64,000 nt of DNA from a virus. The notes under the pieces were generated by a model. It did not search any database. It was not told the origin of the DNA and saw nothing but the letters and a program-made list of their open reading frames with translations. The stretch spans positions 1-64,000 of the IMG/VR virus record IMGVR_UViG_3300030102_003270. One strand, written 5' to 3'. The translations under genes and the position numbers were made by a program. Positions 4,357 through 63,370 of the stretch are shown one piece after another; position 1 is the stretch's first letter, and every line of letters starts with the position of its first letter.

Positions 4357-5271
4357 ATGAAGTGGTTTGATATTGTAAAGGCTCCTCCACCAATGACATT
4401 TAGAGGAACTACTTGGAAATTCTTCGCACCCGGAGACATACCATACCTAGAAGATTTGATTATGGCTAAGGATGCTCCTTGGGAAGAACTATGGCCTACT
4501 GTATCTAGAAAGATATTTTTCGAGAAAGACCAAACTTTCACACCTAAACTAAAAGGAAAGGGTGTAGGATTTTGGGCTATAATGAATATAACCAACGGAG
4601 AATTAGTAGGTGAGGGTTGGGAGATGATGAGGACTAGAGATACATTGAATCGAGATGACCCCGAATCAGTTACAGAAGTGCAATGGGGAATGGGAATGAA
4701 TTCCTTGCAACTAACTCCAAATCAGATAGGAGTAGAGGTAATCAAATACGGGGCAATACCAAAGGTGGAAGTAACCATACCACCGGAAAGTAATCTTCTT
4801 TCAAGGATTGGAGAAGAATACATGAAGGATAAGTTTGAAACCAATCCCGGTAATTATCAACTAAACAACGGGGAGGCAGCAGCACTAGCAATTCTAGGTA
4901 TATTTGCAGAACAAAGAAAACCTAGAGAACGTAAGAATAGAATAAGACTGTTCGATGAATTCCGTATAGGGCCGTTGAAGAAAGAAAGCAACAGCAAGTA
5001 CCTAAGAGGATTAGAGCAGAAGGGTCTTGTTGACTATGGCTCAATGAGAGATGACATTTCTCCTAGCAATAGGGGCTATCCAAGAATAACCAACGAAGGT
5101 TATAGGGAAGCAACAATGCAGGTTGATATGCCTAGAGCAGTTTTCTTTAGCGAGGAAATGGAAGAGGGACCAAGAGGGGAAATGATTCCCTATGGTTTCA
5201 AAGCGAAAGTATTGAAACAACCCGATGCTCCATATATGGGGTATGAAGGCGGTGCATTGGCTGAAGGATAG
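4357..5271 (+). CDS. Hypothetical protein, 304 aa, with KW-IVK tag
   Basis: Begins MKWFDIVKAPPP, a copy of the shared N-terminal tag. The start follows the cassette TGAGGTGATTGAATG, in which the previous stop and the ribosome site interlock. The middle is globular. The region around residues 195-255 (NRIRLFDEFRIGPLKKESNS, then YLRGLEQKGLVDYGS and ITNEGYREA) looks like a winged-helix fold. I do not recognise the family. A DNA-binding internal head protein is conceivable from the tag plus the possible winged helix. Confidence 0.7.
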   Translation: MKWFDIVKAPPPMTFRGTTWKFFAPGDIPYLEDLIMAKDAPWEELWPTVSRKIFFEKDQTFTPKLKGKGVGFWAIMNITNGELVGEGWEMMRTRDTLNRDDPESVTEVQWGMGMNSLQLTPNQIGVEVIKYGAIPKVEVTIPPESNLLSRIGEEYMKDKFETNPGNYQLNNGEAAALAILGIFAEQRKPRERKNRIRLFDEFRIGPLKKESNSKYLRGLEQKGLVDYGSMRDDISPSNRGYPRITNEGYREATMQVDMPRAVFFSEEMEEGPRGEMIPYGFKAKVLKQPDAPYMGYEGGALAEG

Positions 5272-5277
5272 ATTTAG

Positions 5278-7227
5278 ATGTGGCTAGACGTATTGAAGGC
5301 TTTACCTCAAAAGGAAGCAATAGAACCAATGCTTAGTGATGACAAGGGATTGTCTTCTATAATTGGCATGGCTAAACTACCCGATAAGAAAGGTCTGAAG
5401 AATGCGGTTGATGAGACAAAGAGGCTATCTGAAGGAAACGTTAGCACCAACTATAACAAGGAAGATAGAGACAAGATAATAGAGAATGCCGAGAAAGCAT
5501 ACAAAGCACTCAAGGAAATCCTAGATGAATATAGAAAAGAGCAACAGCCCGGTAAAATGGCTGGAAGAATAAAGGAAACTTTGAAGGACATATTAGAAGA
5601 AGAAGACATGGATAGATTCAAAGAATTTATTGGCACAACAGAAATACGCCGACAAAGAAACTCTAGAGAGAAAATAAAAGCAGTCAAAGAACTAGAAGAC
5701 GATGTTAAGAACTTCATCAACGAGAACAAGAAAGACTTCTATTGGGTAGATACCTCTAGCAGAAAACTATTGACTGTTGACGAACCGCCCGAATACATAG
5801 AGGGAGAAATTAAACAAGAAGAGATTGATGGCAGAAAAATCTTCGTTACTGACTTGCCAGATAGAATGAGTGTAGATGACTACAAGAAGACATCAGCATG
5901 GTTCATGGAAGGAAAGAAAAAGAAACCTCTAGGCTACAAGACAGAAGGCCGAGTTCAGTTAGCACCTTTAGTTGCTATATTTGGCTTGTTAACCAGTAGG
6001 GCAGCAGAAGAAGCCACTGACCCATTTACCAATAAGAGATTCACAGTTAACGTTAACACTGGAGAAGACGCAGTAAAATACCTATCATTGCTTACAAAAC
6101 CAAGGTGGAGGAGGTCTTCTGAGTTCATGCCTAAACCTAATCTAAAAAGTTCTGGTGCCACTGTCGCTGCAAGAAAGGCATTGCTAATGCCACAAGGAAA
6201 GGTATTGATTCCTTCTGCATTGAGAGCAATACTAATCAATCCGTCATTAGACATAAACGCCTTGATGGAAGAAGGGGTAAAGCAAACCAAGGAGAAGATA
6301 GTTCCTAATTTTGTTAGAATGGTTCTGATGGGAGAAGAAGACTTTGACTTAGAGGAACAAGGAATAAACCCATCTGACTTTAGAGAATTGCAGAAATTGT
6401 TTACAGGAGCATCCAAAGGAAGAATGTCCGAGTTCGTTAGAAGAGTGAACAGAAAGGGAGGTAGTCTCAAGTCCACCTTGGACACTATAATAGAATTCTA
6501 TGTTGATAAGCAGAATATGTTCAGCGAGGAAGAAGCACAGAAACTTGAGGAAATAAAAGATAGGATGGACGAATACGATACTCAATCAGAACATAAACAG
6601 GCTTTGGAGCAGATATATGAAAACATACCAGATTCCTTGGCAGACTCAATGTATGATTTGATGGACGAGGCAGAAGAAAAGGGAGTATCGTTGTTCAATA
6701 AGGTAGGAGAGTTCTACAAACTCAAAGTAACAGGTTTAGACAAGGAAACAACAGATAGGTTGAACCGTGACTTTAGGGCTTTGAGAATGGACTCAGAAAA
6801 AGTTTCTATTAGCGTAGAGGATAGTTCTTGGAGCAAGATAGAAGAAGAATATGACGAAGAGTATGACCTATCATCAACAGCAGGTCTTAACGTTCTAGAC
6901 ATATTCCACATAATTGCGCTTCTCGATTGGTATTATGGTCAAACAGACTTGTATGAAAAGATACAAGATTGGCTTAATCCAGATGAGTATGAAGAAGAGG
7001 ATGTTCTATTTGATGAGGTAAAAGCAGCAGCAATACAGAACTTCGGGGATATAGTAAATTCATTCATAGAGGCAGTAAAGCAAAGAGTCGAAGATATAGT
7101 TACTAGGCCAAAGACATATCAAGACAAATTAGTGTATACAGAAAAGAGAAAAGATGGTTCTGCCACTAAAGCAACAAAGATGATTAGAGACTTACAAGAA
7201 GCAGGGGTAGTGTCGGTGGTGCAATGA
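5278..7227 (+). CDS. Large hypothetical protein, 649 aa, with WLDVLK tag
   Basis: Starts MWLDVLKALPQ (tag without the extra Ser/Lys). The product is long, soluble and rich in Lys and Glu, with helical stretches at residues ~45-150 and ~400-480 and acidic patches (EEEYDEEYD near 525; DEYEEEDVLFDE near 568). No catalytic motif recognised. It overlaps the next gene by 4 bases (ATGA). It is one of three very large unrecognised proteins in the left arm; two of the three (this one and the one at 15830) carry the tag. Size, charge and tag fit an abundant internal or scaffold-associated protein, by inference. Confidence 0.7.
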   Translation: MWLDVLKALPQKEAIEPMLSDDKGLSSIIGMAKLPDKKGLKNAVDETKRLSEGNVSTNYNKEDRDKIIENAEKAYKALKEILDEYRKEQQPGKMAGRIKETLKDILEEEDMDRFKEFIGTTEIRRQRNSREKIKAVKELEDDVKNFINENKKDFYWVDTSSRKLLTVDEPPEYIEGEIKQEEIDGRKIFVTDLPDRMSVDDYKKTSAWFMEGKKKKPLGYKTEGRVQLAPLVAIFGLLTSRAAEEATDPFTNKRFTVNVNTGEDAVKYLSLLTKPRWRRSSEFMPKPNLKSSGATVAARKALLMPQGKVLIPSALRAILINPSLDINALMEEGVKQTKEKIVPNFVRMVLMGEEDFDLEEQGINPSDFRELQKLFTGASKGRMSEFVRRVNRKGGSLKSTLDTIIEFYVDKQNMFSEEEAQKLEEIKDRMDEYDTQSEHKQALEQIYENIPDSLADSMYDLMDEAEEKGVSLFNKVGEFYKLKVTGLDKETTDRLNRDFRALRMDSEKVSISVEDSSWSKIEEEYDEEYDLSSTAGLNVLDIFHIIALLDWYYGQTDLYEKIQDWLNPDEYEEEDVLFDEVKAAAIQNFGDIVNSFIEAVKQRVEDIVTRPKTYQDKLVYTEKRKDGSATKATKMIRDLQEAGVVSVVQ

Positions 7228-9958: not shown

Positions 9959-10387
9959 ATGAGTTGGTTTAAAATCATAAAAGAAGATGATTATGATGAA
10001 GCGAGAAGAATATTGAACAGGCCAATGGAAGTAGAAGATTGGATGAAAAGAACGATGAAACCGCATACTCAACATAGGAACTGTTGTGAATATACACAGG
10101 AGAAATTCAAGTTAATGCCCAATTACAGAAATGTGCATGAAGATATTCAAGAATTCATCATGGGTATAAATTGCAAGAACAACGAAGAATCAGATACTCT
10201 ACTACTACTTTTGGAAAACATAGATGAGGATGGTATGGAACTGATGAATGATGCTATGATAGAAGAGGGTTTGACTCCTCCAAGCATAAGTGAGTTAGAT
10301 GCTAATGTCAAAGCAATGAGAGAACTTCTAAAATTCTGGCAGACCTGTGAGGCAGAATCCACAGACAAAAGAGGAGTTCCACAGTAG
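9959..10387 (+). CDS. Hypothetical protein upstream of terminase, 142 aa, with SW-IIK tag
   Basis: Begins MSWFKIIKEDDYDEAR, a clear copy of the shared tag, then a helical protein with HRNCCEYTQEKF in the middle and a long amphipathic helix toward the C terminus. It directly precedes the large terminase gene, where small terminase subunits usually lie, but no helix-turn-helix DNA-binding domain is obvious, so I do not call it TerS. The tag suggests it belongs to the same set of head-region proteins. Confidence 0.7.
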   Translation: MSWFKIIKEDDYDEARRILNRPMEVEDWMKRTMKPHTQHRNCCEYTQEKFKLMPNYRNVHEDIQEFIMGINCKNNEESDTLLLLLENIDEDGMELMNDAMIEEGLTPPSISELDANVKAMRELLKFWQTCEAESTDKRGVPQ

Positions 10388-10398
10388 GAGAGAGATTA

Positions 10399-11838
10399 AT
10401 GAGTGGGATGGAAGACCTAAATTTCTCTCACACAATGGATATGGAGTTATCTAAGAACTCATTTCCATATTTCTTTCAGAATGTACTGGGTATGATGTAC
10501 CCAGAATACATGCAAGAATGGTTAGAAACAATGGAGAATACAGATAGAACAGTTATTGTTTGTAGCCGTGACCACGGAAAGTCAGTATTCATGCACTCAT
10601 GGGTAGTATGGAATTTAGTATTCCAAGAACCACCATATCAGATGCTATACATATCATCTAACCAAAAGCAGACACTCGTTCACATGAGAGAGATTGATAG
10701 ATATTTCAACATACCACAACTCAAGAAATTTAGGCCATCTAGAGGATGGGCGATAGGTAACATCCAGTTGACAAACGGCAATTCTATTCTAGAAAGGTCG
10801 GTAGGTTCTCAGATTCGTGGTCTTCACCCACAGGAGATTATCATTGACGACCCCTTGAAGGAGTTTAGTTTGGCTGGAATCAATAGAGTTACTGATTGGT
10901 TCTTTGGAGACATGATACCTACGCTTCATCATACTGCTAATCTTAGAATGATAGGCACTCCGTTCACATATACTGATATTTTTACTCAATTAGAGGAAAA
11001 TGCAGCGTATACCGTTAGAAAATACCCATGTTTAGACTCAAATAATGACCCTCTTTGGCCGGAAAGGTGGAATTATGAAGCATTGATGCAGAGAAAAGCA
11101 GAAATAGGCTCTCTAAAATTCACTAGAGAGTATTTGTGCATACCAATATCAACAGGAACGGCATTATTTGGACAAGAACACTTGGAAAATGCGAAAAATG
11201 AGCATTTGATATTGAGATTAGGCAATAGAAGGGATAAAGGCTACAAATACTACGTTGGTGTTGACCCTGCCATCTCAACAGACGGAGATTACAACGTAAT
11301 CATAGTCTTAGAGGTAGATGAGAACATGAATAAGTCAATTGTTCACATAGATAGGGCCAAAAACGTGCAGTTTAGAGAGAATATAGAGAAACTTAAATTG
11401 ATTGGTCAGATATTTCAGCCAGAAGTGGTTTTGTATGAGACAAATACATTCGCAAAGGCATTTACGCAAGAGTTGAGAAGCGTTACCGATATGAATGTTA
11501 GAGACTTCAATACAACAAGGAGAAAAAAGCAAGAAATCATCTTGGGTCTTCAGATGAATTTCGAGAATAACAAAATACACCTACCCTATGGGGATAACAA
11601 TAGTAGGAAGATGACGATGAATATTATCGAGGAACTATCCATGTTTTCAATCACTGATTCTGGTAAGTTTGAGGGAGTTGGAGCGCACGATGACTTGGTA
11701 ATGGCCCTTGCTTTAGCAAATGCGGCCTCTCAAACGCCTTCTGAGTCCTTTATGCTACTAGACGACCTAGAATTATTTGATGGCCCACAAAAGCCTTCTA
11801 TTGGACTTCCTGTGGGAATAGCAGGTTTGAACTTTTGA
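10399..11838 (+). CDS. terL: Terminase large subunit (packaging ATPase-nuclease)
   Basis: 479 residues, a normal length for TerL. ATPase motifs: Walker A-like SRDHGKS (residues 56-62), preceded by TVIVC; Walker B IIIDDP (147-152). The C-terminal RNase H-fold nuclease shows YYVGVDPA with Asp289 and a late acidic motif GAHDDLVMALALA, typical of the metal site. It powers DNA translocation into the prohead through the portal and cuts genome ends or concatemers. The start at 10399 has GGAGAGA upstream. The portal gene lies one gene downstream, as expected. The intervening gene is the LAGLIDADG fusion. Confidence 0.95.
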   Translation: MSGMEDLNFSHTMDMELSKNSFPYFFQNVLGMMYPEYMQEWLETMENTDRTVIVCSRDHGKSVFMHSWVVWNLVFQEPPYQMLYISSNQKQTLVHMREIDRYFNIPQLKKFRPSRGWAIGNIQLTNGNSILERSVGSQIRGLHPQEIIIDDPLKEFSLAGINRVTDWFFGDMIPTLHHTANLRMIGTPFTYTDIFTQLEENAAYTVRKYPCLDSNNDPLWPERWNYEALMQRKAEIGSLKFTREYLCIPISTGTALFGQEHLENAKNEHLILRLGNRRDKGYKYYVGVDPAISTDGDYNVIIVLEVDENMNKSIVHIDRAKNVQFRENIEKLKLIGQIFQPEVVLYETNTFAKAFTQELRSVTDMNVRDFNTTRRKKQEIILGLQMNFENNKIHLPYGDNNSRKMTMNIIEELSMFSITDSGKFEGVGAHDDLVMALALANAASQTPSESFMLLDDLELFDGPQKPSIGLPVGIAGLNF

Positions 11839-11851
11839 AGAGGTGAGAGTA

Positions 11852-13168
11852 ATGAGTGAATTGACGGAGCAAATGCGTGAAACTGCTGATAAACTAGACG
11901 CTGCCGATGAAGAGGCAAAAGAAGCAGAAAGAGAATTACAAATAGCAATAGAAGAAACTAAGAATGCATCTGATTGGTTAGCATCTCAACCTTTGATGGG
12001 GGATGATGACCTAATCAAGTTGTTCGCAAGTGAAAGAGAAATTAACTTATCTCAAGCAAAGAATACACTGTTCACATATCCCAGAAGATACCTAATCAAA
12101 GGAAAGGATGTTCCTTCTATCGTCAAGGAGATGAGAACATACCGAAGAACCTTGAAGGGAAGTCAGAAGGTACAGTTCACAAAGTCAATAGACAATCTGA
12201 TAGATGCTTACACCGACCATTTAGGCAAGTGCATAGATAGCATTCATTGGATTAAGAAATACAAGGTTCCACTACAATCTATGGTATTGAACGAGGAGCA
12301 GTTGTATAAGTTGTATCTAGTAAAAGAGGAAGAGAAGAGAAGAAAGATGGTAGATAGCCTATGCAAATATTGGGAAGCAAGTCTAGAAAGAAAGGAAATA
12401 CCATTCAATAAAGAATACGCTAGTCTAACAAAGCAGATGACTAATGAAAAGAAAGCCTTCAAATTATTGCTAAAGGAAACCCCTATAAGCACATCTCCTA
12501 AAGACGAGATTAGGAAGGCCATCCTAGATTCTGTTTGTTATAATCCGGGTATATCTGCTAGACAGATACATGACCAGTTACCTAAGAAACTACAAAACAG
12601 AAGTTCTTCCAGAATAATAGCAAAATTAGCAAAAGACGAAAATATAACAAGTGTTGATGGTGCTTACTATAAAATAAATGATGAGATTAAAAAGAATATA
12701 TGGGCTTATACTGCTGCCTTTATTGATTCAGATGGATATATTACAATGGATAAAAATCATAACCCAAGAGTAGGTTTAGTAGCGACAGGAAATAGAGGAA
12801 AGGCATTCATGTTGGAGATGCACAAATCAATAGGGATGGGAAGATTGCATTTAGACCAAAAATCTCCACAAGATACCAGACTAATAAACAGACTTAATTT
12901 CTATTCCGGTACAGAAATAACAGACTTATTGACCAAATGCTTACCACATTTTAAATTAAAGAAAAATAATGCTAAAGTATTATTAGAATTAATTAAGATT
13001 AAAAAAGAAAATAAGAAAGAAGATTGGTATAAAGAAAGAAAGGGAGAGTTATTCAAATTGATGAAGTATTATAATCATAGTGATAACAGCAAATTCGATT
13101 GGAAGGCATGGGATATTGACATAGATAATATTTCTAAACTCGAACAGAACAGTAAAATGGAGTTCTAG
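11852..13168 (+). CDS. Coiled-coil protein fused to winged helix and LAGLIDADG endonuclease domain
   Basis: ATG 11852 is chosen because AGGTGA lies 6-11 bases upstream; a GTG at 11843 overlaps that site. Residues 1-215 are helical (N-terminal coiled coil TADKLDAADEEAKEAEREL). Residues ~216-280 look like a winged helix (DEIRKAILDSVC... GISARQIHDQLPKK). Residues ~290-395 carry one LAGLIDADG motif (YTAAFIDSDGYI) with the following strand and RLNFYSG, typical of homing endonucleases. The DNA for the last ~500 bases is markedly richer in A and T than its surroundings. A homing endonuclease appears to have joined, in frame, a gene lying between terminase and portal. The N-terminal part is unrecognised. 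Confidence 0.8.
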   Translation: MSELTEQMRETADKLDAADEEAKEAERELQIAIEETKNASDWLASQPLMGDDDLIKLFASEREINLSQAKNTLFTYPRRYLIKGKDVPSIVKEMRTYRRTLKGSQKVQFTKSIDNLIDAYTDHLGKCIDSIHWIKKYKVPLQSMVLNEEQLYKLYLVKEEEKRRKMVDSLCKYWEASLERKEIPFNKEYASLTKQMTNEKKAFKLLLKETPISTSPKDEIRKAILDSVCYNPGISARQIHDQLPKKLQNRSSSRIIAKLAKDENITSVDGAYYKINDEIKKNIWAYTAAFIDSDGYITMDKNHNPRVGLVATGNRGKAFMLEMHKSIGMGRLHLDQKSPQDTRLINRLNFYSGTEITDLLTKCLPHFKLKKNNAKVLLELIKIKKENKKEDWYKERKGELFKLMKYYNHSDNSKFDWKAWDIDIDNISKLEQNSKMEF

Positions 13169-13170
13169 AA

Positions 13171-14823
13171 ATGGTGCAAGAGAGAAGAAGATTCACCCTC
13201 ACTAATCTATTTAGGAGGGCGACCCCAAAGCCGGAAGATAGGAAGATATTCAATCCCGGCATACAAGAAAAAGATACAAGTTATATGATAACTTCACCAA
13301 TACTCTATCATGTTGCTCAGTCTTCTGTAATAGTCAGAACTTGCACAACCCAGTTGAAGAATGAGATATTCAGAAGAGGATATACATGGGAAGAGAAGTT
13401 CACATCAAAATGCGGTGAATGTGGCAACGAGCATCAAAGCGCAGTAAAACAGTGTGCTGATTGTGGTTCTATGGAACTAAAGAAACCAGACAAAAGCCAA
13501 TTAAAATATGCTCACAAATTCCTAGATAGATATGTCAATTCATCTGAGCAATTGTTCATTGACGTATTGAAGGAATTAGAGGATGACCTAAACATCATGG
13601 ATGACGCATATATCATATTGGTCAAGGAATACTATATTGACAATGCTGGTAAAATAAGAATGCATAAGATAAATCAGATATATCGTGGCGACCCTGTGAC
13701 CATGCACATCCATTCAGACATGAATGGTGACAAGGGTAATTCTGGCTTCACTTGTATCAAGCACAGGGACCAAATCACAGAAGACCCAGTTGGACATTGT
13801 GAGATATGCGGGGATATGATGTACCCTGTCCATTATGTGAATAGAGTGAACGGAAAGGAACAGTATTACATCGAGGGTGAGGTTCTTCACTTCAGTAAAT
13901 ACAACCCAAGTAGATTGTATGGGCTATCTCCTGTATTGACATTATGGAATCACATAACCACTTTACTTGCTATGGAGAACTACGTCAATTCATCATATTC
14001 CAAGAGCAGAATGCCTAGAGGACTTCTTGCGGTGCAGACTAGAAATATAGACTCAATGAAATCCTTCTGGCGAGGAGTCAAAGAAAAGATGGAGCAAGAC
14101 CCTCACTTCATACCTGTTATGGGTATTGAGGCAGAAAACGGTAAGGGTTCTATTGAGTGGATTAAGTTCATGGATAGTCTGAAGGAAATGGATTACGTTT
14201 CTGTTAAGGACGACCTAAGAGATAGAATATCAGCATTCTACGGAGTAAGCAAGATATTCATGTCTGATAATTCTGCTAGTGGCGGATTGAATAATGAGGG
14301 TATGCAGATACTTGTGACCAATAGGGCAGTAGAGATGGCTCAGACACTTTACAATGAATATGTTTTACCTTTCATAACCAAGGAGTTTGGTATTACAGAT
14401 TGGCAATTGAAACTACCTCCATCGGAAGAGGAAGATGCAATAGCAAAACTAAGGAAGAGAGAAATCGAAGTAAATATTGCAGCATCAATAAAGAATCTAG
14501 GTTTCGAGGTTGATATGGACGATGAAGGAAGATTTACGTTTGAGAAGCCTCCTCCAGAAATGCAAGAAGGAAAGAAGGATAAGGATGAGGAAATAGAATT
14601 AGACCCCTATGCAGGAACCAACATAGACCAATCACAATTAGGACAAATGATGGAACAAGGAACTAGACCTACTAAAGAGGAAGCAGGTAAGCCAGCAGAA
14701 GTAAAGGGACAGACTAGAAACAAACCTAGCATGAGTGTAGGTCCAGACCAAAGATTCACAGGACTACCTAAAGAAGCAGGTAATCAAAACGTGGACAAGA
14801 GGACAGAAAGGAGGGTTGGTTAG
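13171..14823 (+). CDS. Portal protein with two inserted zinc-binding sites
   Basis: 550 residues downstream of terminase. The central and C-terminal parts fit portal proteins: YNPSRLYGLSPVLTLWNHIT, then a long helix, then DDLRDRISAFYGVSKIFM, NEGMQILVTNRAVEMAQTLY and ending in a Gln/Pro/Lys-rich tail. Portal dodecamers form the DNA channel at one capsid vertex and dock terminase and the tail connector. Unusual here are two cysteine clusters in the N-terminal half: C81-C84-C95-C98 (a zinc-ribbon spacing) and C195-H198-C210-C213. Zinc ribbons are not a general portal feature. Confidence 0.9.
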   Translation: MVQERRRFTLTNLFRRATPKPEDRKIFNPGIQEKDTSYMITSPILYHVAQSSVIVRTCTTQLKNEIFRRGYTWEEKFTSKCGECGNEHQSAVKQCADCGSMELKKPDKSQLKYAHKFLDRYVNSSEQLFIDVLKELEDDLNIMDDAYIILVKEYYIDNAGKIRMHKINQIYRGDPVTMHIHSDMNGDKGNSGFTCIKHRDQITEDPVGHCEICGDMMYPVHYVNRVNGKEQYYIEGEVLHFSKYNPSRLYGLSPVLTLWNHITTLLAMENYVNSSYSKSRMPRGLLAVQTRNIDSMKSFWRGVKEKMEQDPHFIPVMGIEAENGKGSIEWIKFMDSLKEMDYVSVKDDLRDRISAFYGVSKIFMSDNSASGGLNNEGMQILVTNRAVEMAQTLYNEYVLPFITKEFGITDWQLKLPPSEEEDAIAKLRKREIEVNIAASIKNLGFEVDMDDEGRFTFEKPPPEMQEGKKDKDEEIELDPYAGTNIDQSQLGQMMEQGTRPTKEEAGKPAEVKGQTRNKPSMSVGPDQRFTGLPKEAGNQNVDKRTERRVG

Positions 14824-15622: not shown

Positions 15623-15827
15623 GAAAAGCGTAAGAGATTTAGAAAGAGAACTAGTCAAGGCTAGAAAAAGAGAAGCCAGCGAGCGTAAAGTTAACACAAG
15701 TAGAAACTTGGATTACATAGGCCCAGACCCTAACTCAGTGAAAAAGGAAAAGCCCGGAATGGCAGATATACCAGACTATATCGGACTACCAAAGAAACAA
15801 AGAAGAAGAACAGAAAACAAGTGGTAG
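15615..15827 (+). CDS. Small basic hypothetical protein, 70 aa
   Basis: I choose ATG 15615 (MSEKSVRDLERE), 8 bases after a GGGTGAG ribosome site, over the upstream GTG at 15606 that lies within that site. A charged helix rich in Arg, Lys and Glu is followed by two copies of a DYIG motif (NLDYIGPDP and IPDYIGLPKK) and a basic C terminus. Function unknown. The repeated DYIG elements might be short binding motifs for a partner protein. Confidence 0.65.
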   Translation: MSEKSVRDLERELVKARKREASERKVNTSRNLDYIGPDPNSVKKEKPGMADIPDYIGLPKKQRRRTENKW

Positions 15828-15829
15828 TC

Positions 15830-17935
15830 ATGAGTTTCATGGATGTATTGAAGGCCAAGCCGATAATCATAGAGAAATCTATGCCTATTGTAAAGGAAGA
15901 CTATACATCCAGACCATTATACAGAAAACTAGAATCTAGGTTAGAGGAAATCAGTGGACTGAGCGCACCTGTTCCCACTATAATGCAAGCGGTTGATGAA
16001 GCAATAAAGGATAGCCAACAGTCTGATGTTGAGTTATCAGCAGAAGAAGAGAAGCAAATGAAGGTGAAGATAAAATCACTCAAGGAAGAATTGAAACTAG
16101 TTGACAAGACTAGCAAAAAAGCATATCAAAATAGAATAGAAAACCTTGAGAAAATCATATCGAGGTTAGAGGAACTAAAAGAAACCCACGATGAAATCAT
16201 GGAAAGATTAGAGCCACTAAAGAAGGAATATAAAGAACTAGAAGGGGGAATGGGGGAAGAGGCTCAGACTAGAGCAAAGGAACTAAATGAAAAAATAAGA
16301 CCTCTAGAGAAAGAAATCAATGAAATAAAGAGTAACATGCGTTTTGCATTTACTGGGACTTTCTCATATCGTCCGGTGTTACCCGAAGAAAAGACTGAGG
16401 GAAAAATGGCTGATAAAGTATCTAAGAAGCCTAGAAACGAGAGACAAAGAGATGGAGATGCAGAATATGACATCACCTTCTCAACAGGGATAGCGAACTA
16501 CAAGAAGAGGGTGGAAGAATACAACAAACTAGAGCCTATCGTAACAAGCAAGAAAGACAAGGCAATAACAAAGGACAAGATAAAACAACAAATAGATTCT
16601 TTGGAAAGGCAAGTTAAAACAGGGAAGAAAGATAGACCTCTTCTAATCACTTCCAAGGGAGGTATAGGTAGGCAGGAGAATGTCAATGCTGTTCTAGTCA
16701 ATGCAATAAGACAACTAAACATGTCAGAATATGCAGATGAAATAGTAGACAAACTCTCGCCTAAGATACGCCAAAGAGTCAAAAGACAAGAAAGAGAACT
16801 AAACAACCAAGAAGAAGCATTGATGCAGTTAATAGATGAACTGAATGCTGAAGAGATATCTAGTTCCACCGAAACAAGATTGCAAGTAAACAATATGCTC
16901 AACAATAGATTCCTATACAATATGACTCTAAACGTATCTGGAGAAAGAGATAACATACATCCCGATGTGGTAAATGCGCTAAGGGAACCAGATGTGTTTG
17001 AGGATGTAGTTAGAAAGATGAAGGAAATAAAACCAAGTCTGAAGAGAGTGAAGTCCAAGGATGTAAGAACAGTCATGCAATCCTTACGAACAGCAAAGAC
17101 AGATGTATCTCAAATAGCGAGACAGGTTCTATCAAGACAATATCCCGACAATATAGAATACAAAGACCTACTAGCATTGAACTCAGAATCGGATTTAAGT
17201 AAATTACTAGACAAACTTGGAATGCTGGTTGCATCATGGGATGCATTGTCAGATAGATTTTTCCTCGATGCAGAAGATGTGGATGAACAGTATTGGTCTG
17301 ATGAAAAGATAGTAGCAGAAATAAAAGAAAGTTGGGAGACACTATTGGAAGATGCACCGGAGATAGCAGGGTTGAGCGAGGAAGAAATGCAATCCAAGTA
17401 TAATGAGCATCTAAAGAAAGGATATAGTAGACTGGTCAAGCAAATGGAAAAACTATACAAGAGCATAATAATGTATTACGATGCAAGCATGACTCTATTA
17501 GATGCATTCATCAGCGCAAAGGGATTCAGATATCAACTACCTGCAACTAGTGATTGGTCGGGAATACTCACATTAGGGGCAGGTGAAAAGAGAGACACTG
17601 ACTTGGCTTTGGAAACCATTAGAAAGAATCTAATGGAGACAAAGAAGGATGTGGATGGACAGCGAACCATAATGAAAGGCTTCATTCCTAATATAGATGA
17701 CTACATGCAATCGCTAGAGGAAGACAATGTAGATAGCACTTTACTCGATGAATATGAAAGAGCCAGCAAAGAAGCACAAAGAGAAAGAGTTAGGCAAGCA
17801 AAAGAAGAAGACGATAAGAAAATAAGAAGGGATAAGGATAATCCTTATTCCAGAAGGGCAACTACCGAGACAATGAGAGAGGCATCTAAGCCGTTCCTTG
17901 AACAGCCAAAAAGAAAGAAAGAAGAAGAGGAATAA
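15830..17935 (+). CDS. Large coiled-coil hypothetical protein, 701 aa, with SFMDVLK tag
   Basis: ATG 15830 gives MSFMDVLKAKPIIIEK, the tag with Phe in place of Trp; an in-frame GTG lies 9 bases upstream. Residues ~65-165 are a long coiled coil (KKAYQNRIENLEKIISRLEE). The rest is helical and highly charged, ending with a Lys/Arg/Glu tail. No enzymatic motif recognised. Together with the 649-residue protein at 5278 it forms a class of large, tagged, Lys/Glu-rich proteins; an internal head protein is my best inference. Confidence 0.7.
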   Translation: MSFMDVLKAKPIIIEKSMPIVKEDYTSRPLYRKLESRLEEISGLSAPVPTIMQAVDEAIKDSQQSDVELSAEEEKQMKVKIKSLKEELKLVDKTSKKAYQNRIENLEKIISRLEELKETHDEIMERLEPLKKEYKELEGGMGEEAQTRAKELNEKIRPLEKEINEIKSNMRFAFTGTFSYRPVLPEEKTEGKMADKVSKKPRNERQRDGDAEYDITFSTGIANYKKRVEEYNKLEPIVTSKKDKAITKDKIKQQIDSLERQVKTGKKDRPLLITSKGGIGRQENVNAVLVNAIRQLNMSEYADEIVDKLSPKIRQRVKRQERELNNQEEALMQLIDELNAEEISSSTETRLQVNNMLNNRFLYNMTLNVSGERDNIHPDVVNALREPDVFEDVVRKMKEIKPSLKRVKSKDVRTVMQSLRTAKTDVSQIARQVLSRQYPDNIEYKDLLALNSESDLSKLLDKLGMLVASWDALSDRFFLDAEDVDEQYWSDEKIVAEIKESWETLLEDAPEIAGLSEEEMQSKYNEHLKKGYSRLVKQMEKLYKSIIMYYDASMTLLDAFISAKGFRYQLPATSDWSGILTLGAGEKRDTDLALETIRKNLMETKKDVDGQRTIMKGFIPNIDDYMQSLEEDNVDSTLLDEYERASKEAQRERVRQAKEEDDKKIRRDKDNPYSRRATTETMREASKPFLEQPKRKKEEEE

Positions 17936-19307: not shown

Positions 19308-21821
19308 ATGCTTCTGAAGTCAGTCTTTGTTGGCAAGCAAAACAAAGCACTAGCGAAGCGTATCTTAGACTTCTATGAAGATGTTAGGTATAATTATCTA
19401 TCAGCAAGGGAAGACCCGAAGGAATATAGAAAGAATTGGGTGGAGAGCGTAAAGAGAATAAGAAAGGATTTTGACGGACTAGGAGAGTTTTCTTCCATGC
19501 TGAAGAAATATCTAGAGGAAGAGAATGTATTTAGTCAGAAGTCACTTAATCCCGAATCATACGATGCCAAGAAACTATATGATTCTATCAAGCAGATGAG
19601 ATTTAACTCTTCTGAATTGAATGACCCGTTTGCCAGACAGATGGGCGATGATGTCATAGAGAATCTACTACGCTCCCCTCCAATATTTGCTATGTTCATA
19701 CACTATGCATTGCGTTCAGATTCTAGCGCAATAAAGGAAGATGCGTGGAATAAGCATGACCTCAAACCAGATAAGATTACTCAAGGTGCGGAAGGATTGG
19801 ATTTAGCATTAAAGGATGTACCATTATACATCATTGAGCATTATGGAGATGACAAGGATGGTAATGATAGAGTAGAGGATAAATTTGAGGCAGCATTGAA
19901 ACTACTGAAGAAAGTCTTCCTAGAAGAGAAATCAGAAGATGAGTGGGAAGCACTAGTTGACCTAGACCTAAAGAAGAGTGATGAAGAGAAGGCTGAGATA
20001 GAATTCATAATACCTAACAAGCCGATGTATAGAATATTTGAAATAAATGACATAAAGGAATTGAAAGGATTCACAGGAGAATGGGTAGTTCAAGAAAAGT
20101 ATGACGGAATAAGAATACAGATACACAAGACAAATGGGGATGTGAAGATATATTCTTACAATAAGAAGGACATATCTGAGAAGTGCAAGGACATAATCAA
20201 GATACTGAAACAGAAAAAGTTCGGTGATTTGATACTTGACGGAGAACTGATACTATATGATGGAGATGAACCTCTACATAGAGCAGACACAATAGCCCAC
20301 TTGTTCAAGAACAAATACAAGGATGCTACACTAAAAGCCAAGGTATTCGATATTATGTCCCATGATGGGGAAGACCATACTGATAATCCATTGAGAGAAA
20401 GAGTGAATATACTTCAGTATCAACTGGCTCAACACTCCGAGGATATACTAGAGTTTCCAAACAAGAAGAATACGAGGATAGCAGACTCGTTAAGCGAGAT
20501 AGACAAATACGCAAAAGACATTATGCAGTCAAAAACCTCAGAAGGGGTGGTGATAAAAGATATAGAATCAACATATTACATAGGCACGAAAAAGAATCCT
20601 AAGTGGATTAAGTTCAAGAAATTCGTTGACTTAGATGTAATAGTGTTGGAAAAGAAGAAGACAAAATCAAATATGTACTCTTACAGTGTAGGGGTTGGTC
20701 CTTTATCTGGTGAAGAAGCAAGAGAGCATACGGGAATAGAGTATGAAGGAAAGACATATCTGCCAGTAGGAAAGGCACTTAACACCAAAGAAAACGTAGA
20801 CATAGGTGCTATTGTAAGAGTGAAGGTTGATGAAGTAAGAAGGGCAGGTAAAGGATATAGTCTGTATTCTGCTAAGGTTATAGAAATTCCAGAAGTAGAT
20901 ACTCCAGAAAAACTAGTCACTCTAGAGTTACTATCAAAGGATGGTAGGAAGTCCTTGAAGTATAATGTAGAAGAAGCATTGCTAAAATACACAATAACTG
21001 ATGGTATTCACGGCACTGCTGAGATTCTATTGAAATCAGACTATGAAGGATATAGCATATATGGTATTGAAGGAGACAGTCTAATGGAGAAGAATGCCAT
21101 TGCTGATATGGATATGTGGAAGGAGCAGTTATCTGAGATACATAAGGGTAAGACAACTGAAGCAATAGCCATAATAAAACAATATCTGCAAGAGGAAGAC
21201 CCAGATGAAAAAGGTATTCATGTCAAAGATATATTTGAGTTCATAGAAAAGAGAGATGCAGACTTGACAGAATCAATGTTTGAAAATAATCCAAGGAAAC
21301 TAAAGAACTTCCTAAATGACCATGATGCATTCATACCATTAGGTAATCAGAAGTTCACTGCTAACTCTAAGATAATAATAAAAGACAAAGAAGAAGATAA
21401 CAGTAGATATGGTAAGTTTCAACTATATACTAGAAAAGACAATAATATTGATTTCATAATTAATTACAAAGATGAAACATTTGCTTGGACTATTGACATA
21501 GATGACTCAAAAGATATTTACAACCTATTTGGAAAATCAGGTAAATATCCAGCAGAAGTTTCTAGGGGAGTTCAAAAGGATAAACTTTTAGATAGCGGTA
21601 AAATACTAATGGGAGTTCAAAAGCATGGATATCATGAATATAAATTAGAAGGGGATAAGTTTGAGACTAGATTACATTTGAGAGTTATACCAGTCAAAAA
21701 CCAAGATACATGGCTTGCTTGGACTGGAATAAAACAAAAGATGTTAGAAAGGTCAGATGATGAAGGAATATGGGATATTACTGAAGATAGGTATAAAAAA
21801 TTAACCATGCAAATAAAGTAA
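19308..21821 (+). CDS. ATP-dependent DNA ligase with long N- and C-terminal extensions
   Basis: Nucleotidyltransferase motifs are clear: motif I VVQEKYDGIRIQ (AMP-accepting Lys264), motif III ILDGELILYD, motif IV SEGVVIKD, motif V WIKFKK, then an OB fold. It seals nicks using ATP. At 837 residues it is longer than usual for archaeal ligases (about 560-600). Residues ~590-837 add a domain ending FETRLHLRVIPVKNQ... WLAWTG, which recalls the LigD phosphoesterase-like modules that bacterial phages fuse near XkdF proteases; that is a tentative match. The gene lies in the head module, beginning MLLKSVFVGK (weak tag resemblance), not with the replication genes. DNA from ~21.35 kb becomes more AT-rich. 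It ends in a TAATAA double stop. Confidence 0.88.
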   Translation: MLLKSVFVGKQNKALAKRILDFYEDVRYNYLSAREDPKEYRKNWVESVKRIRKDFDGLGEFSSMLKKYLEEENVFSQKSLNPESYDAKKLYDSIKQMRFNSSELNDPFARQMGDDVIENLLRSPPIFAMFIHYALRSDSSAIKEDAWNKHDLKPDKITQGAEGLDLALKDVPLYIIEHYGDDKDGNDRVEDKFEAALKLLKKVFLEEKSEDEWEALVDLDLKKSDEEKAEIEFIIPNKPMYRIFEINDIKELKGFTGEWVVQEKYDGIRIQIHKTNGDVKIYSYNKKDISEKCKDIIKILKQKKFGDLILDGELILYDGDEPLHRADTIAHLFKNKYKDATLKAKVFDIMSHDGEDHTDNPLRERVNILQYQLAQHSEDILEFPNKKNTRIADSLSEIDKYAKDIMQSKTSEGVVIKDIESTYYIGTKKNPKWIKFKKFVDLDVIVLEKKKTKSNMYSYSVGVGPLSGEEAREHTGIEYEGKTYLPVGKALNTKENVDIGAIVRVKVDEVRRAGKGYSLYSAKVIEIPEVDTPEKLVTLELLSKDGRKSLKYNVEEALLKYTITDGIHGTAEILLKSDYEGYSIYGIEGDSLMEKNAIADMDMWKEQLSEIHKGKTTEAIAIIKQYLQEEDPDEKGIHVKDIFEFIEKRDADLTESMFENNPRKLKNFLNDHDAFIPLGNQKFTANSKIIIKDKEEDNSRYGKFQLYTRKDNNIDFIINYKDETFAWTIDIDDSKDIYNLFGKSGKYPAEVSRGVQKDKLLDSGKILMGVQKHGYHEYKLEGDKFETRLHLRVIPVKNQDTWLAWTGIKQKMLERSDDEGIWDITEDRYKKLTMQIK

Positions 21822-60513: not shown

Positions 60514-61431
60514 TTACCACCATTCATCTAACGTCTTTTGTTTTGAGTCATTTTTTATTGGGGCTAGACTCCAACCCATTGCCTTGTATATTGGTTCAGC
60601 CTTCTTTATAATAGATTCTGCATAATGGGGCCAATCTGGTGTATGTCTATACAATTCTTCCTTTGTAGAAGCAGCGATATAGGACGGTCTTTTGACTACG
60701 CCTGTAACCGGATTAACGTAGGTTGTTCTCCTAACGTCATCTGCTACCTTTAGATAAACATAAGAATCATCTATCTTATTGTCTTCATTCTGATGATTCC
60801 AGATAACACCTTCAATGCCAGAACCTATACTTGGCCTTTTACCAGAAGTTGTGACCACATTCAATTTTTGACCGCACTTACTACAACATGCCTCATGACT
60901 GTCTCGCTTTGCTTCATTGTGAATATCAATGCAATCTTGCATTGAAAGTGCTTTTTTGCAGTCATTACACTTGTAAGATAGCCTTTCTGGTCTATATCTG
61001 CTTCTGTTAATCAGATAGTCAACTGGGACTTTTCCTTCAAGGACTGCGTAATATGCCTTCTTCAACATGCTAGTTATTTCTAACTCGGTGAATTGACCAA
61101 CCCACATTTTCAGAATGCTCATCTGAGTCTCCTTGGCTAGTTTGGTTATTGATAACCGCTTTGCAGTAAAACCCGTCATTACAAATTCTGGCTCATTCAG
61201 ATACTTTCCATCCTTCCAAGAAATCAAACCAGCGTTTCTATTCTTAGTTAGACCTACACCTAGAGACTGATAGTATTTCTCAAACTCCAAAGTAACAGGA
61301 TGTTCATCCAAACCTAACAAGTTAGGAAATATCTGCCTAACATGATTGTTTAGTAATTGTAACGTTGCTTCTGCTTCTTCCATAGGCATTTGAACGTATA
61401 TTGAATCAGTGTGTCCATAAACAACCTTCAC
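60514..61431 (-). CDS. polB: Family B DNA polymerase, C-terminal half with PIP box
   Basis: GTG start at 61431, 5 bases after GGTGAT, gives MKVVYGHTDSIYVQM. This is polymerase motif C, normally YGDTDS; the metal-binding second Asp is kept (Asp9) but the first Asp is His7. Downstream: a palm/thumb region (VGLTKNRNAGLI; TGFTAKRLSITKLA) and an inserted zinc site (CNDC at ~154-157, then CCSKCG). The last residues QKTLDEWW form a PIP box for PCNA. It must pair with the N-terminal half to make active polymerase. 305 residues. Confidence 0.88.
   Translation of the reverse strand: MKVVYGHTDSIYVQMPMEEAEATLQLLNNHVRQIFPNLLGLDEHPVTLEFEKYYQSLGVGLTKNRNAGLISWKDGKYLNEPEFVMTGFTAKRLSITKLAKETQMSILKMWVGQFTELEITSMLKKAYYAVLEGKVPVDYLINRSRYRPERLSYKCNDCKKALSMQDCIDIHNEAKRDSHEACCSKCGQKLNVVTTSGKRPSIGSGIEGVIWNHQNEDNKIDDSYVYLKVADDVRRTTYVNPVTGVVKRPSYIAASTKEELYRHTPDWPHYAESIIKKAEPIYKAMGWSLAPIKNDSKQKTLDEWW
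60517..60540 (-). other. PIP box (PCNA-binding motif) at PolB C terminus
   Basis: QKTLDEWW fits the Q-x-x-(L/I)-x-x-aromatic-aromatic pattern and is the extreme C terminus, where archaeal PolB PIP boxes lie. A PCNA gene is in the same operon. Confidence 0.8.
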
Positions 61432-61514
61432 TTACAATCACCACACCTATACCTTCTATCTAGACCAAAAGGGTGTATAGCACCACACCATCTACATTGT
61501 CTTCTGTTCTTCAT
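61428..61514 (-). CDS. Zinc-ribbon microprotein in PolB split, 28 aa
   Basis: MKNRRQCRWCGAIHPFGLDR... RCGDCK: CxxC at 7-10 and CxxC at 24-27 make a minimal zinc ribbon. GGAGTG lies 8 bases before its ATG; its stop overlaps the GTG of the PolB C half (GTGA), and its last codons contain the GGTGAT ribosome site for that half. Confidence 0.65.
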   Translation of the reverse strand: MKNRRQCRWCGAIHPFGLDRRYRCGDCK

Positions 61515-61516
61515 AT

Positions 61517-61615
61517 CTAGCACACTCCTACGATAATAGAATTCAATACAAACGCAATCGTGCCGGATATATAGAAACTCATTCTTCCATAAAATATCTT
61601 ATCTTCCCTATTCAT
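61517..61615 (-). CDS. Membrane microprotein in PolB split, 32 aa
   Basis: MNREDKIFYGRMSFYISGTI... with one hydrophobic helix (about residues 13-31). The ATG follows GGTGATTAGA, the ribosome site overlapping the stop of the previous microgene. Unknown function. Confidence 0.55.
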   Translation of the reverse strand: MNREDKIFYGRMSFYISGTIAFVLNSIIVGVC

Positions 61616-61616
61616 T

Positions 61617-61703
61617 CTAATCACCAAACAGAAAGCGATACAGGATAACGCTCATAGCGGAAACATACAATACAATTATACTGAAACTGACGACATTCAT
61701 CAT
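61617..61703 (-). CDS. Membrane microprotein in PolB split, 28 aa
   Basis: MMNVVSFSIIVLYVSAMSVI... FLFGD, almost entirely one transmembrane helix. The ATG overlaps the stop of the PolB N half (ATGA) and lies 6 bases after GGTGAT. Unknown function; spacing and ribosome site are the evidence. Confidence 0.55.
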   Translation of the reverse strand: MMNVVSFSIIVLYVSAMSVILYRFLFGD

Positions 61704-63370
61704 AACTCCATCACCTTGAAAGCCGCTTCCCTAATTGCTTCTCTAGCACTAGCAGTTATACTAGCAGCCAAATCAACATCAGCCCAACCAAATCCTTGAT
61801 ACCCAACCACTCCATAGAATGAAGCCATCAGTCTCTTAACTGCTAATTGGTTGTTGTTCCACTTAGCATATTCAGCAGGGTCTTTTGCGTTATACATTCT
61901 CTTCTTGTATTCCGTCCTTAGTTTCTTTAGGTCTAATACTGCCTTTGGCAGAAGACCCAATTCATCCGTCCTGTAATATTTCCAGTCTTCAAACTTGACA
62001 GGACTGAAATCTCTTGGTATCAGGACGTTCACACCAAACTCAGTTGGTTCCTTTGATTTAGTCTCCCATGATATATTACGGGCAATCATCATACTAGGAT
62101 ATAGCCCTGCAAAATCAAATGCAGCAACACCTAGATGCAAACCATTGGTTCCTTCTGTCTCCGGGTTGTAAATCATAGCACCCTCATACTCCACCCTGTC
62201 ACCTTCTTTGTCTCCTGTTGGAGCCTTCCAAGTAGCATTACGCATGAAGTATATTCCACCCATGTTTGATGCATAGAAACATGCATCGAATGGTGCAACA
62301 ATCAAACGCTGAAGTGATATGATTGCCTCAGAAGTATAGTTTTCTTCATCCAATCTAACAATCAAGTCAACGTCCTTTCTAGCATAGTCTAGATAGTTTT
62401 GAGTATCTTCTAACCATCCTCTTTGAAAGAACTGATTCTTGTCTGGAAACCTATCACTGACTAGTTTCTTCTCACCAAGGACATTCTCAGAAACATAGTC
62501 CAATGCCAATGAGGGTAATGTTCCCCTTTGAGCATCATTCCATTGTCTCTCAAACGCCAAGTCTAGATTCAGAATCAACCTTCCTCTAATCGGTTGCTCG
62601 ATAGGAGTATAGGAATTGACTGCCTTACTGAGTTTTATGCCACCAGAATAATACACTCCCTTGACATCATTGTAAGGAGATAGAAGTCTTGGGTCTATAT
62701 CATTGGCATGTAATCTCTCAATTAACTTAGGCAAATCGAACTTTGAACCAAACCAAGCAATAAGCATGTCTGGGTCTTTTTCCGTAATCTCCTTGACGAA
62801 TGCAAAAAGCATACTCTTCTCAGAATCATAGGGCTTTGAATGTCCTCTAATCTTTCTATTGATTGAATCTGGTTGCCACCAATATACATTAGATTTCTTA
62901 GTATAGTTGTCATAATAGGAAATACAAGTAATAGCACCGTTATACTTACCACGCTGTTGCCACTCTAAATCCCAGTAAAACTTCCTAAGTCTGTATTCTG
63001 GCAGTGATGTTAATCTGTCAATTGCATACCGATAATGAAAGGGAACGTCTGCCTCAAAGGTTTCATTCCATTGCTTACGCAGTTCCCTAACGTAGTTTGG
63101 TTTTGGTGGACTCCAAGTAACTTTCTTCAAAGCCCTACCATCAAGAGATACAGAACCATCAACAGTATAACTTAGATTGATTCTAAACGAATCCTTCCTA
63201 CCATTGACGTATTCTGTAATGTTGACTCCTTGCCTTTCATTCTCATTTGCCAGAATGTAGAAATACGGATTGAAATCCGCATAACTTACATTCGACTCTA
63301 ATCTATTGTTGTTCTCATCTCTCCATCTAAGAACAAACATATTCGCATTGTCTATTGCACTAATTATCAT
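61700..63370 (-). CDS. polB: Family B DNA polymerase, N-terminal half (exonuclease and palm)
   Basis: 556 residues. Exonuclease motifs: Exo I FYWDLEW (Asp134, Glu136), Exo II AWFGSKFDLP (Asn replaced but Asp212 kept), Exo III YARKDVD (Tyr329, Asp333). Polymerase motif A AAFDFAGLYPS (Asp419), motif B KRLMASFYG (512-520; the usual Asn is Ala). The frame stops after REAAFKVMEL, just where the next motif (YGDTDS) should follow. No intein sequence is present. Together with the C half the total is about 861 residues, normal for PolB. Starts 5 bases after the PCNA stop. Confidence 0.9.
   Translation of the reverse strand: MIISAIDNANMFVLRWRDENNNRLESNVSYADFNPYFYILANENERQGVNITEYVNGRKDSFRINLSYTVDGSVSLDGRALKKVTWSPPKPNYVRELRKQWNETFEADVPFHYRYAIDRLTSLPEYRLRKFYWDLEWQQRGKYNGAITCISYYDNYTKKSNVYWWQPDSINRKIRGHSKPYDSEKSMLFAFVKEITEKDPDMLIAWFGSKFDLPKLIERLHANDIDPRLLSPYNDVKGVYYSGGIKLSKAVNSYTPIEQPIRGRLILNLDLAFERQWNDAQRGTLPSLALDYVSENVLGEKKLVSDRFPDKNQFFQRGWLEDTQNYLDYARKDVDLIVRLDEENYTSEAIISLQRLIVAPFDACFYASNMGGIYFMRNATWKAPTGDKEGDRVEYEGAMIYNPETEGTNGLHLGVAAFDFAGLYPSMMIARNISWETKSKEPTEFGVNVLIPRDFSPVKFEDWKYYRTDELGLLPKAVLDLKKLRTEYKKRMYNAKDPAEYAKWNNNQLAVKRLMASFYGVVGYQGFGWADVDLAASITASAREAIREAAFKVMEL

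Follow-up and report, generated by a model that had tools for sequence, protein, structure and literature searches.

Nuclease genes beside terminases have been discussed both as parts of the packaging machinery and as homing genes (PMC10448857). In HK97, gp74 is an HNH protein resembling homing endonucleases, and promotes cos cleavage together with the HK97 terminase (PMC9410871). In HCMV, a LAGLIDADG motif has been proposed in the terminase subunit pUL56, an accessory subunit needed for replication (PMC6950143), and in Gram-positive bacteria a domesticated LAGLIDADG domain is joined to a helix-turn-helix in WhiA, a transcription factor without metal-binding and catalytic residues (PMC3781837). 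I-CreI, I-CvuI and I-MsoI, with one LAGLIDADG motif per chain, are intron-encoded mobile enzymes.

The gene described here lies in the window, i.e. the whole stretch of 64,000 nucleotides that was analysed (positions 1–64,000 of the IMG/VR record IMGVR_UViG_3300030102_003270), and its product is read, with a probability of about 55%, as a packaging partner of TerL derived from a LAGLIDADG endonuclease of the I-CreI class that has been domesticated and is probably active, in effect a TerS. As with gp74, a gene for a homing-endonuclease-like nuclease is found in a terminase module; the nuclease fold is unrelated to that of gp74, which works beside a separate TerS, whereas no TerS was detected in the window family by the profiles tried. 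The resemblance to pUL56, drawn from its description, is that an accessory terminase subunit has been proposed to contain an element like LAGLIDADG, but in pUL56 this element is only a short motif, and a later model did not put it close to the drug-resistance mutations, whereas the window protein contains the whole fold.

The ORF occupies 11843–13168 on the plus strand, as do the neighbouring genes of the locus, and its ATG at 11852, together with the translation and the full-length relatives, defines a complete fusion gene of 438 codons plus stop (11852–13168). It is preceded by the TerL gene (10399–11838, plus strand; phrog_38, a PHROG terminase, 6e−49, and Terminase_6C) and followed by the portal gene (13171–14823, plus strand; phrog_18178, a PHROG portal, 7e−67). 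An earlier note on this DNA, made from the sequence alone, had described an in-frame fusion, located between the genes for terminase and portal, rather than an intron or intein. The ORF, the PHROG assignments and Rfam agree with it, the one Rfam hit being at chance level (E 0.98) and a group I intron not being found. An intron or intein is unsupported, as the ORF is intact and the LAGLIDADG domain is its C-terminal domain; none of the locations of a mobile homing endonuclease gene (intron, intein or free-standing ORF) is thus seen. A UniProt viral entry, A0A516LD89, is 50% identical to the window protein over the full length.

An AlphaFold model built on an alignment of 35 relatives (mean pLDDT 86.6) consists of four parts, each modelled with confidence, their relative placement being uncertain (pTM 0.51). 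Residues 2–45 (11855–11986) form a long N-terminal helix (pLDDT 66–80), a probable coiled coil for oligomerization by the model. There follows a helical N-terminal domain (residues 45–215, about 51–209 in the model; 11984–12496; pLDDT 89), for which Foldseek returned no significant PDB match. A profile of the N-terminal part showed a resemblance of residues 147–205 (12290–12466) to phage T4 Vs.4 (PDB 7uq2; E 1.6e−4), which is absent from the fold search and possibly reflects chance likeness between helical proteins. Residues 216–283 (12497–12700) correspond, from the secondary structure of the model, to a winged helix-turn-helix, the core of which (216–273) is modelled as three helices and a beta hairpin; Pfam HTH_24 is weakly matched by three relatives (best E 0.054). 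The single-motif LAGLIDADG domain of the I-CreI class is placed at residues 284–402 (12701–13057) by Foldseek, the sequence profile and phrog_5046 (1.2e−5), with residues 283–386 modelled in the alpha-beta-beta-alpha-beta-beta-alpha topology of the LAGLIDADG core, motif helix included, and two further helices after it. The C-terminal winged helix and single LAGLIDADG motif of the earlier note are therefore borne out by model, fold search and profile, with a small correction: the winged helix starts further upstream than the 12600 given there, near 12497.

The first 40 Foldseek matches in the PDB are all I-CreI, I-CvuI, I-MsoI or engineered derivatives (E about 3e−6), and the profile of the C-terminal domain matches an engineered I-CreI chain at 3.9e−7 and I-CreI itself at 1e−3, so that the predicted identity as a LAGLIDADG endonuclease is far beyond chance. 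The motif AAFIDSDG (12713–12736), within TAAFIDSDGYI at residues 287–297, is invariant at residues 288–290 and 292–295 in the 140 non-redundant relatives among the matches listed, with I291 present in 139; D292, D294, G295, T312 and K370 are identical in all 140. In I-CreI numbering, the alignment equates D294 (codon 12731–12733), the acidic metal ligand closing the motif, with D20, the basic active-site residue K370 (codon 12959–12961) with the catalytic K98, and T312 with Q47. What the domain has in common with I-CreI, I-CvuI and I-MsoI is the fold, the one motif per chain and the positions of the catalytic Asp and Lys. It differs in having Thr in place of Gln47 of I-CreI, in being fused to a coiled-coil/helical domain and a winged helix, and in its fixed position beside TerL, which those intron-encoded enzymes do not share. 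From the single motif per chain a homodimer would be expected, by analogy with I-CreI, and the conserved residues suggest that the nuclease domain is probably still active. The entry phrog_5046 is labelled ‘HNH endonuclease’ but is matched by all 35 aligned LAGLIDADG members, and the label looks wrong; an HNH endonuclease was rejected for this gene, with no Pfam HNH match and with fold and sequence being those of LAGLIDADG.

The viral collection was scanned with the complete protein and, separately, with its C-terminal and N-terminal domains; the three scans gave at least 227 loci, in each of which a single ORF encodes all three domains. When scans with the portal and with a distant family member were added, the complete architecture was found in 358 loci among the matches listed, and the sole three exceptions are clipped by contig ends. 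The 358 loci represent 193 distinct proteins, 140 of which fall below 95% identity, and do not equal a number of viruses, as contigs recur across scans; each scan covered the best 80 of about 290–430 matches, and a rare exception in the tail is possible. Because scans with the fusion could be biased towards finding it, TerL was also used as the seed, and the fusion lay downstream in one ORF at 80 of 80 loci (the best 80 matches of that scan). No relative consisting of the N-terminal protein alone was present among the matches listed, so that no insertion point inside the gene can be placed, and the search proposed earlier for relatives without the endonuclease met instead with the absence of the whole gene in haloarchaeal viruses. 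Within the family no empty allele was found among the matches listed from the fusion- and TerL-seeded scans, and the presence/absence polymorphism of a mobile homing endonuclease gene is thus not seen outside the comparison with the haloarchaeal outgroups. Some marine contigs of the portal scan stop before TerL and are uninformative on the fusion; the single near-full-length contig in that group carries the fusion at its opposite end.

A search of 84,980 cellular species genomes gave a single match, the 29-kb contig NZMJ01000101.1 (L314), 91% identical to the window gene and filed under a Maricaulis (bacterial) MAG, which is probably a misbinned marine virus contig, and plasmids gave no match. 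The 184,733-base record IMGVR_UViG_3300021958_000021 (L334, L357, L405 and L461) contains two different sets of TerL plus fusion about 90 kb apart, and is probably a chimaeric assembly of two related virus genomes.

Wherever TerL was found, which is in 134 of the non-redundant loci listed, it lies upstream of the fusion, at a median gap of 4 bp; the gap exceeds 100 bp in seven loci, where it is filled by small inserted genes. The portal is more than 300 bp from the fusion in 49 of 137 non-redundant loci listed, and up to 3.6 kb away. The constant adjacency of TerL, set against the variable distance of the portal, indicates that the gene travels with TerL, and favours a link with the packaging motor over the ‘virion protein’ suggested in the earlier note. 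The gene preceding TerL is variable, with one family in 60 of 86 loci, to which the window does not belong, and no other gene universally adjoins TerL in the relatives' loci listed. The fusion is therefore a TerL-adjacent gene, conserved with TerL and containing a predicted DNA-binding domain, as would be expected of a TerS. In a sister clade (L310 216–3141, L296 1–1601, L312 1–1427, L301 1–1231), an array of small genes, many beginning with W..[IV]LK, separates fusion and portal.

Among 116 relatives, the LAGLIDADG domain is the best-conserved part of the protein, with a median pairwise identity of 0.765, to be compared with 0.737 for TerL, 0.713 for the portal, 0.471 for the winged helix and 0.435 for the N-terminal domain, and the distances of TerL, N-terminal domain, winged helix and LAGLIDADG domain covary (Spearman 0.61–0.75). 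Synonymous differences among 35 relatives of less than 90% identity have reached saturation in every domain alike (median pS 0.77–0.82), with nonsynonymous differences of 0.15 in the LAGLIDADG domain versus 0.35 in the N-terminal domain. The saturated synonymous divergence and the covariation with TerL argue for vertical descent, and the same saturation combined with the invariant active-site residues is the pattern of a working enzyme kept under long purifying selection rather than of a decaying or freshly moved homing endonuclease gene. The AT-richness of the C-terminal DNA remarked on earlier is real in the window (GC 0.308 in residues 284–402 versus 0.372 in residues 45–215), but it is local and no family trait: in the 116 relatives the LAGLIDADG part averages 3.5 points GC-richer than the N-terminal domain, being poorer in only 9%. 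Excess synonymous conservation across the same 116 relatives was found within TerL, at 10654–10680 and 10798–10866 of the window (residues about 86–94 and 134–156), and could mark a cis element or nuclease target, or merely codon preference at conserved residues. Inside the fusion gene, the scan for a conserved target site found none.

The haloarchaeal outgroups are linked to the window family through the portal, which is 28–30% identical to those of Druskaviridae (HVTV-1, HCTV-1, HCTV-5). Before TerL, Druskaviridae carry a small gene for a helix-turn-helix protein that weakly resembles small terminase subunits (phrog_3218, 1.3e−3). The slot between TerL and portal is empty in HCTV-1 and holds a free-standing HNH gene in HVTV-1 (gene 111) and HCTV-5 (gene 106), and in further contigs with related portals TerL directly abuts the portal; among archaeal tailed viruses this position is a hot spot of nuclease genes (L231 for HCTV-5, L232 for HCTV-1, L398 for HVTV-1). 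These Druskaviridae genes share with the fusion the slot and a related portal, but they are HNH rather than LAGLIDADG, are unfused, are missing in HCTV-1 and coexist with the TerS-like gene. Two TerS profiles, from the Druskaviridae TerS-like gene and from phrog_3218, detect three of three haloviruses and none of 13 near-full-length records of the window family, the window's own included; a divergent TerS elsewhere in the genome could have been missed by them. The fusion protein itself has no PHROG or profile match as a TerS, and its N-terminal domain, which has no PDB match, is unsupported as a known TerS by profile or fold search.

In one other reading, the LAGLIDADG domain binds DNA without cutting it, for example as a packaging-site binder or a late-gene regulator. 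The combination of winged helix and LAGLIDADG recalls WhiA, which is built of an HTH and a LAGLIDADG domain, and DNA binding alone would be enough for a TerS, yet WhiA is degenerate and has lost its catalytic residues (PMC3781837), whereas D294 and K370 are invariant in all 140 proteins listed, which makes this reading unlikely. We regard as distinctly unlikely that the gene is still a selfish homing endonuclease, cutting alleles without the gene in co-infecting viruses and using the rest of the protein as a DNA-binding segment: with no empty allele among the matches listed, no homing cycle is visible, no decay of the fusion protein is seen in the 140 non-redundant proteins listed, and the divergence pattern is that of vertical descent. 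In its favour, phage terminases often have endonuclease genes clustered next to them (PMC10448857), Druskaviridae have free-standing HNH genes of patchy occurrence in the corresponding slot, and the TerL stretches with excess synonymous conservation could be its target.

An offensive nuclease directed against competing viruses, satellites or host DNA, and found in the packaging operon by chance, is highly unlikely. Genes of this kind are usually patchy and fast-evolving, whereas this domain is no less constant than TerL and keeps its fixed place next to it. The conserved active site does fit this reading, as does the reuse of endonuclease domains against satellites in other phages (PMC10448857). 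The GC step in the window is what speaks for a recent horizontal insertion by which the C-terminal end of a head protein was cut short or replaced, in line with the captured or replaced C terminus proposed in the earlier note. The whole fusion is present in all 358 assessable loci listed, old and with no N-terminal-only relative, and a recent acquisition is ruled out by the saturated synonymous sites and by the absence of the step in relatives, so that this explanation retains hardly any probability. A full fusion in all relatives, with matching codon use, had been named beforehand as the mark of an old integral domain; every assessable relative listed does have it, and the odd composition of the window gene is not shared by them.

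In the preferred reading of the gene as a packaging component, a former selfish endonuclease has probably become a permanent and essential part of packaging, and is not a recent insertion. The N-terminal coiled coil and helical domain would serve for oligomerization, for docking on TerL or for both. A specific site in the viral concatemer would be recognized by the winged helix together with a LAGLIDADG homodimer; the nuclease would cut or nick at this site, and TerL would start (or end) packaging there. The fusion protein would thus do the job of the small terminase subunit in a group with no recognizable TerS. The stronger form of this proposal, namely that a site-specific LAGLIDADG homodimer has replaced TerS in abundant marine archaeal viruses and chooses the packaging start by cutting, is advanced tentatively and is open to considerable doubt. 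To our knowledge, packaging initiation by such LAGLIDADG cutting has not been described.

If the preferred reading is correct, a second and unrelated class of homing endonuclease, LAGLIDADG besides HNH, has been drafted into viral DNA packaging, with the catalytic site retained over long divergence and fixed across a whole virus group. It would provide a concrete TerS-equivalent candidate for magrovirus-like viruses, in which the TerS profiles tried found none, and a real example for comparison with the LAGLIDADG element proposed in the herpesvirus terminase. The protein is present in databases; its description as a fixed terminase-linked LAGLIDADG fusion was not found in the searchable literature. 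No paper was found on LAGLIDADG with Poseidoniales viruses, and LAGLIDADG is unmentioned in a magrovirus survey (PMC10160649) and in the archaeal tailed-virus taxonomy paper; the original magrovirus paper or a 2025 paper on Poseidoniales viruses may contain a prior mention.

By gene content, the window family looks magrovirus-like at the level of the order. The genome of about 96 kb encodes a split B-family polymerase, an ERCC4 nuclease, a ligase, an S78 protease and an SU10-type capsid protein, a gene set like that described for Poseidoniales viruses, or magroviruses (PMC10160649, PMC10768690), and the traits of Magrovirales (about 90–110 kb, tailed, PolB, ligase, ERCC4 nuclease, S78 protease, portal and TerL) are all found. 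PolB, at 60514–63370 on the minus strand, is split into two ORFs (556 and 305 aa), as in Aoguangviridae, for which a PolB-NTD/CTD pair has been shown (PMC10768690). The plus-strand gene at 19308–21821 encodes a protein of 837 aa, which includes an ATP-dependent DNA ligase domain and large stretches outside it without an assignment; the gene lies in the head module, ahead of those for the S78 protease and the capsid.

Fixed genome ends are unsupported, as contig break points look random: those of 27 near-full-length contigs, with positions taken by hand from contig ranges, are compatible with a random distribution (KS p 0.29). The window itself begins inside an ORF, and its first gene, tried as a marker of contig ends, had no match in 25 records. 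Headful packaging from a pac site would agree with the random break points and with the fact that a related genome assembled as a circle (PMC10768690), but assembly alone could produce the same picture.

Many otherwise unrelated, often K/R-rich proteins of the head module share a start peptide of the form M(x0-6)W..[IV][LV]K (e.g. MSWRDILKD, MKWFDIVKA and MWLDVLKA). In the window, the genes concerned lie at 1849–2145, 4357–5271, 5278–7227, 9959–10387 and 15821–17935, all on the plus strand, and others were seen in the loci L310, L296, L301, L312, L062 and L368. The pattern is 6.5-fold enriched near N termini in the window, and the peptide may be a capsid-targeting or scaffold signal cleaved off by the S78 protease.
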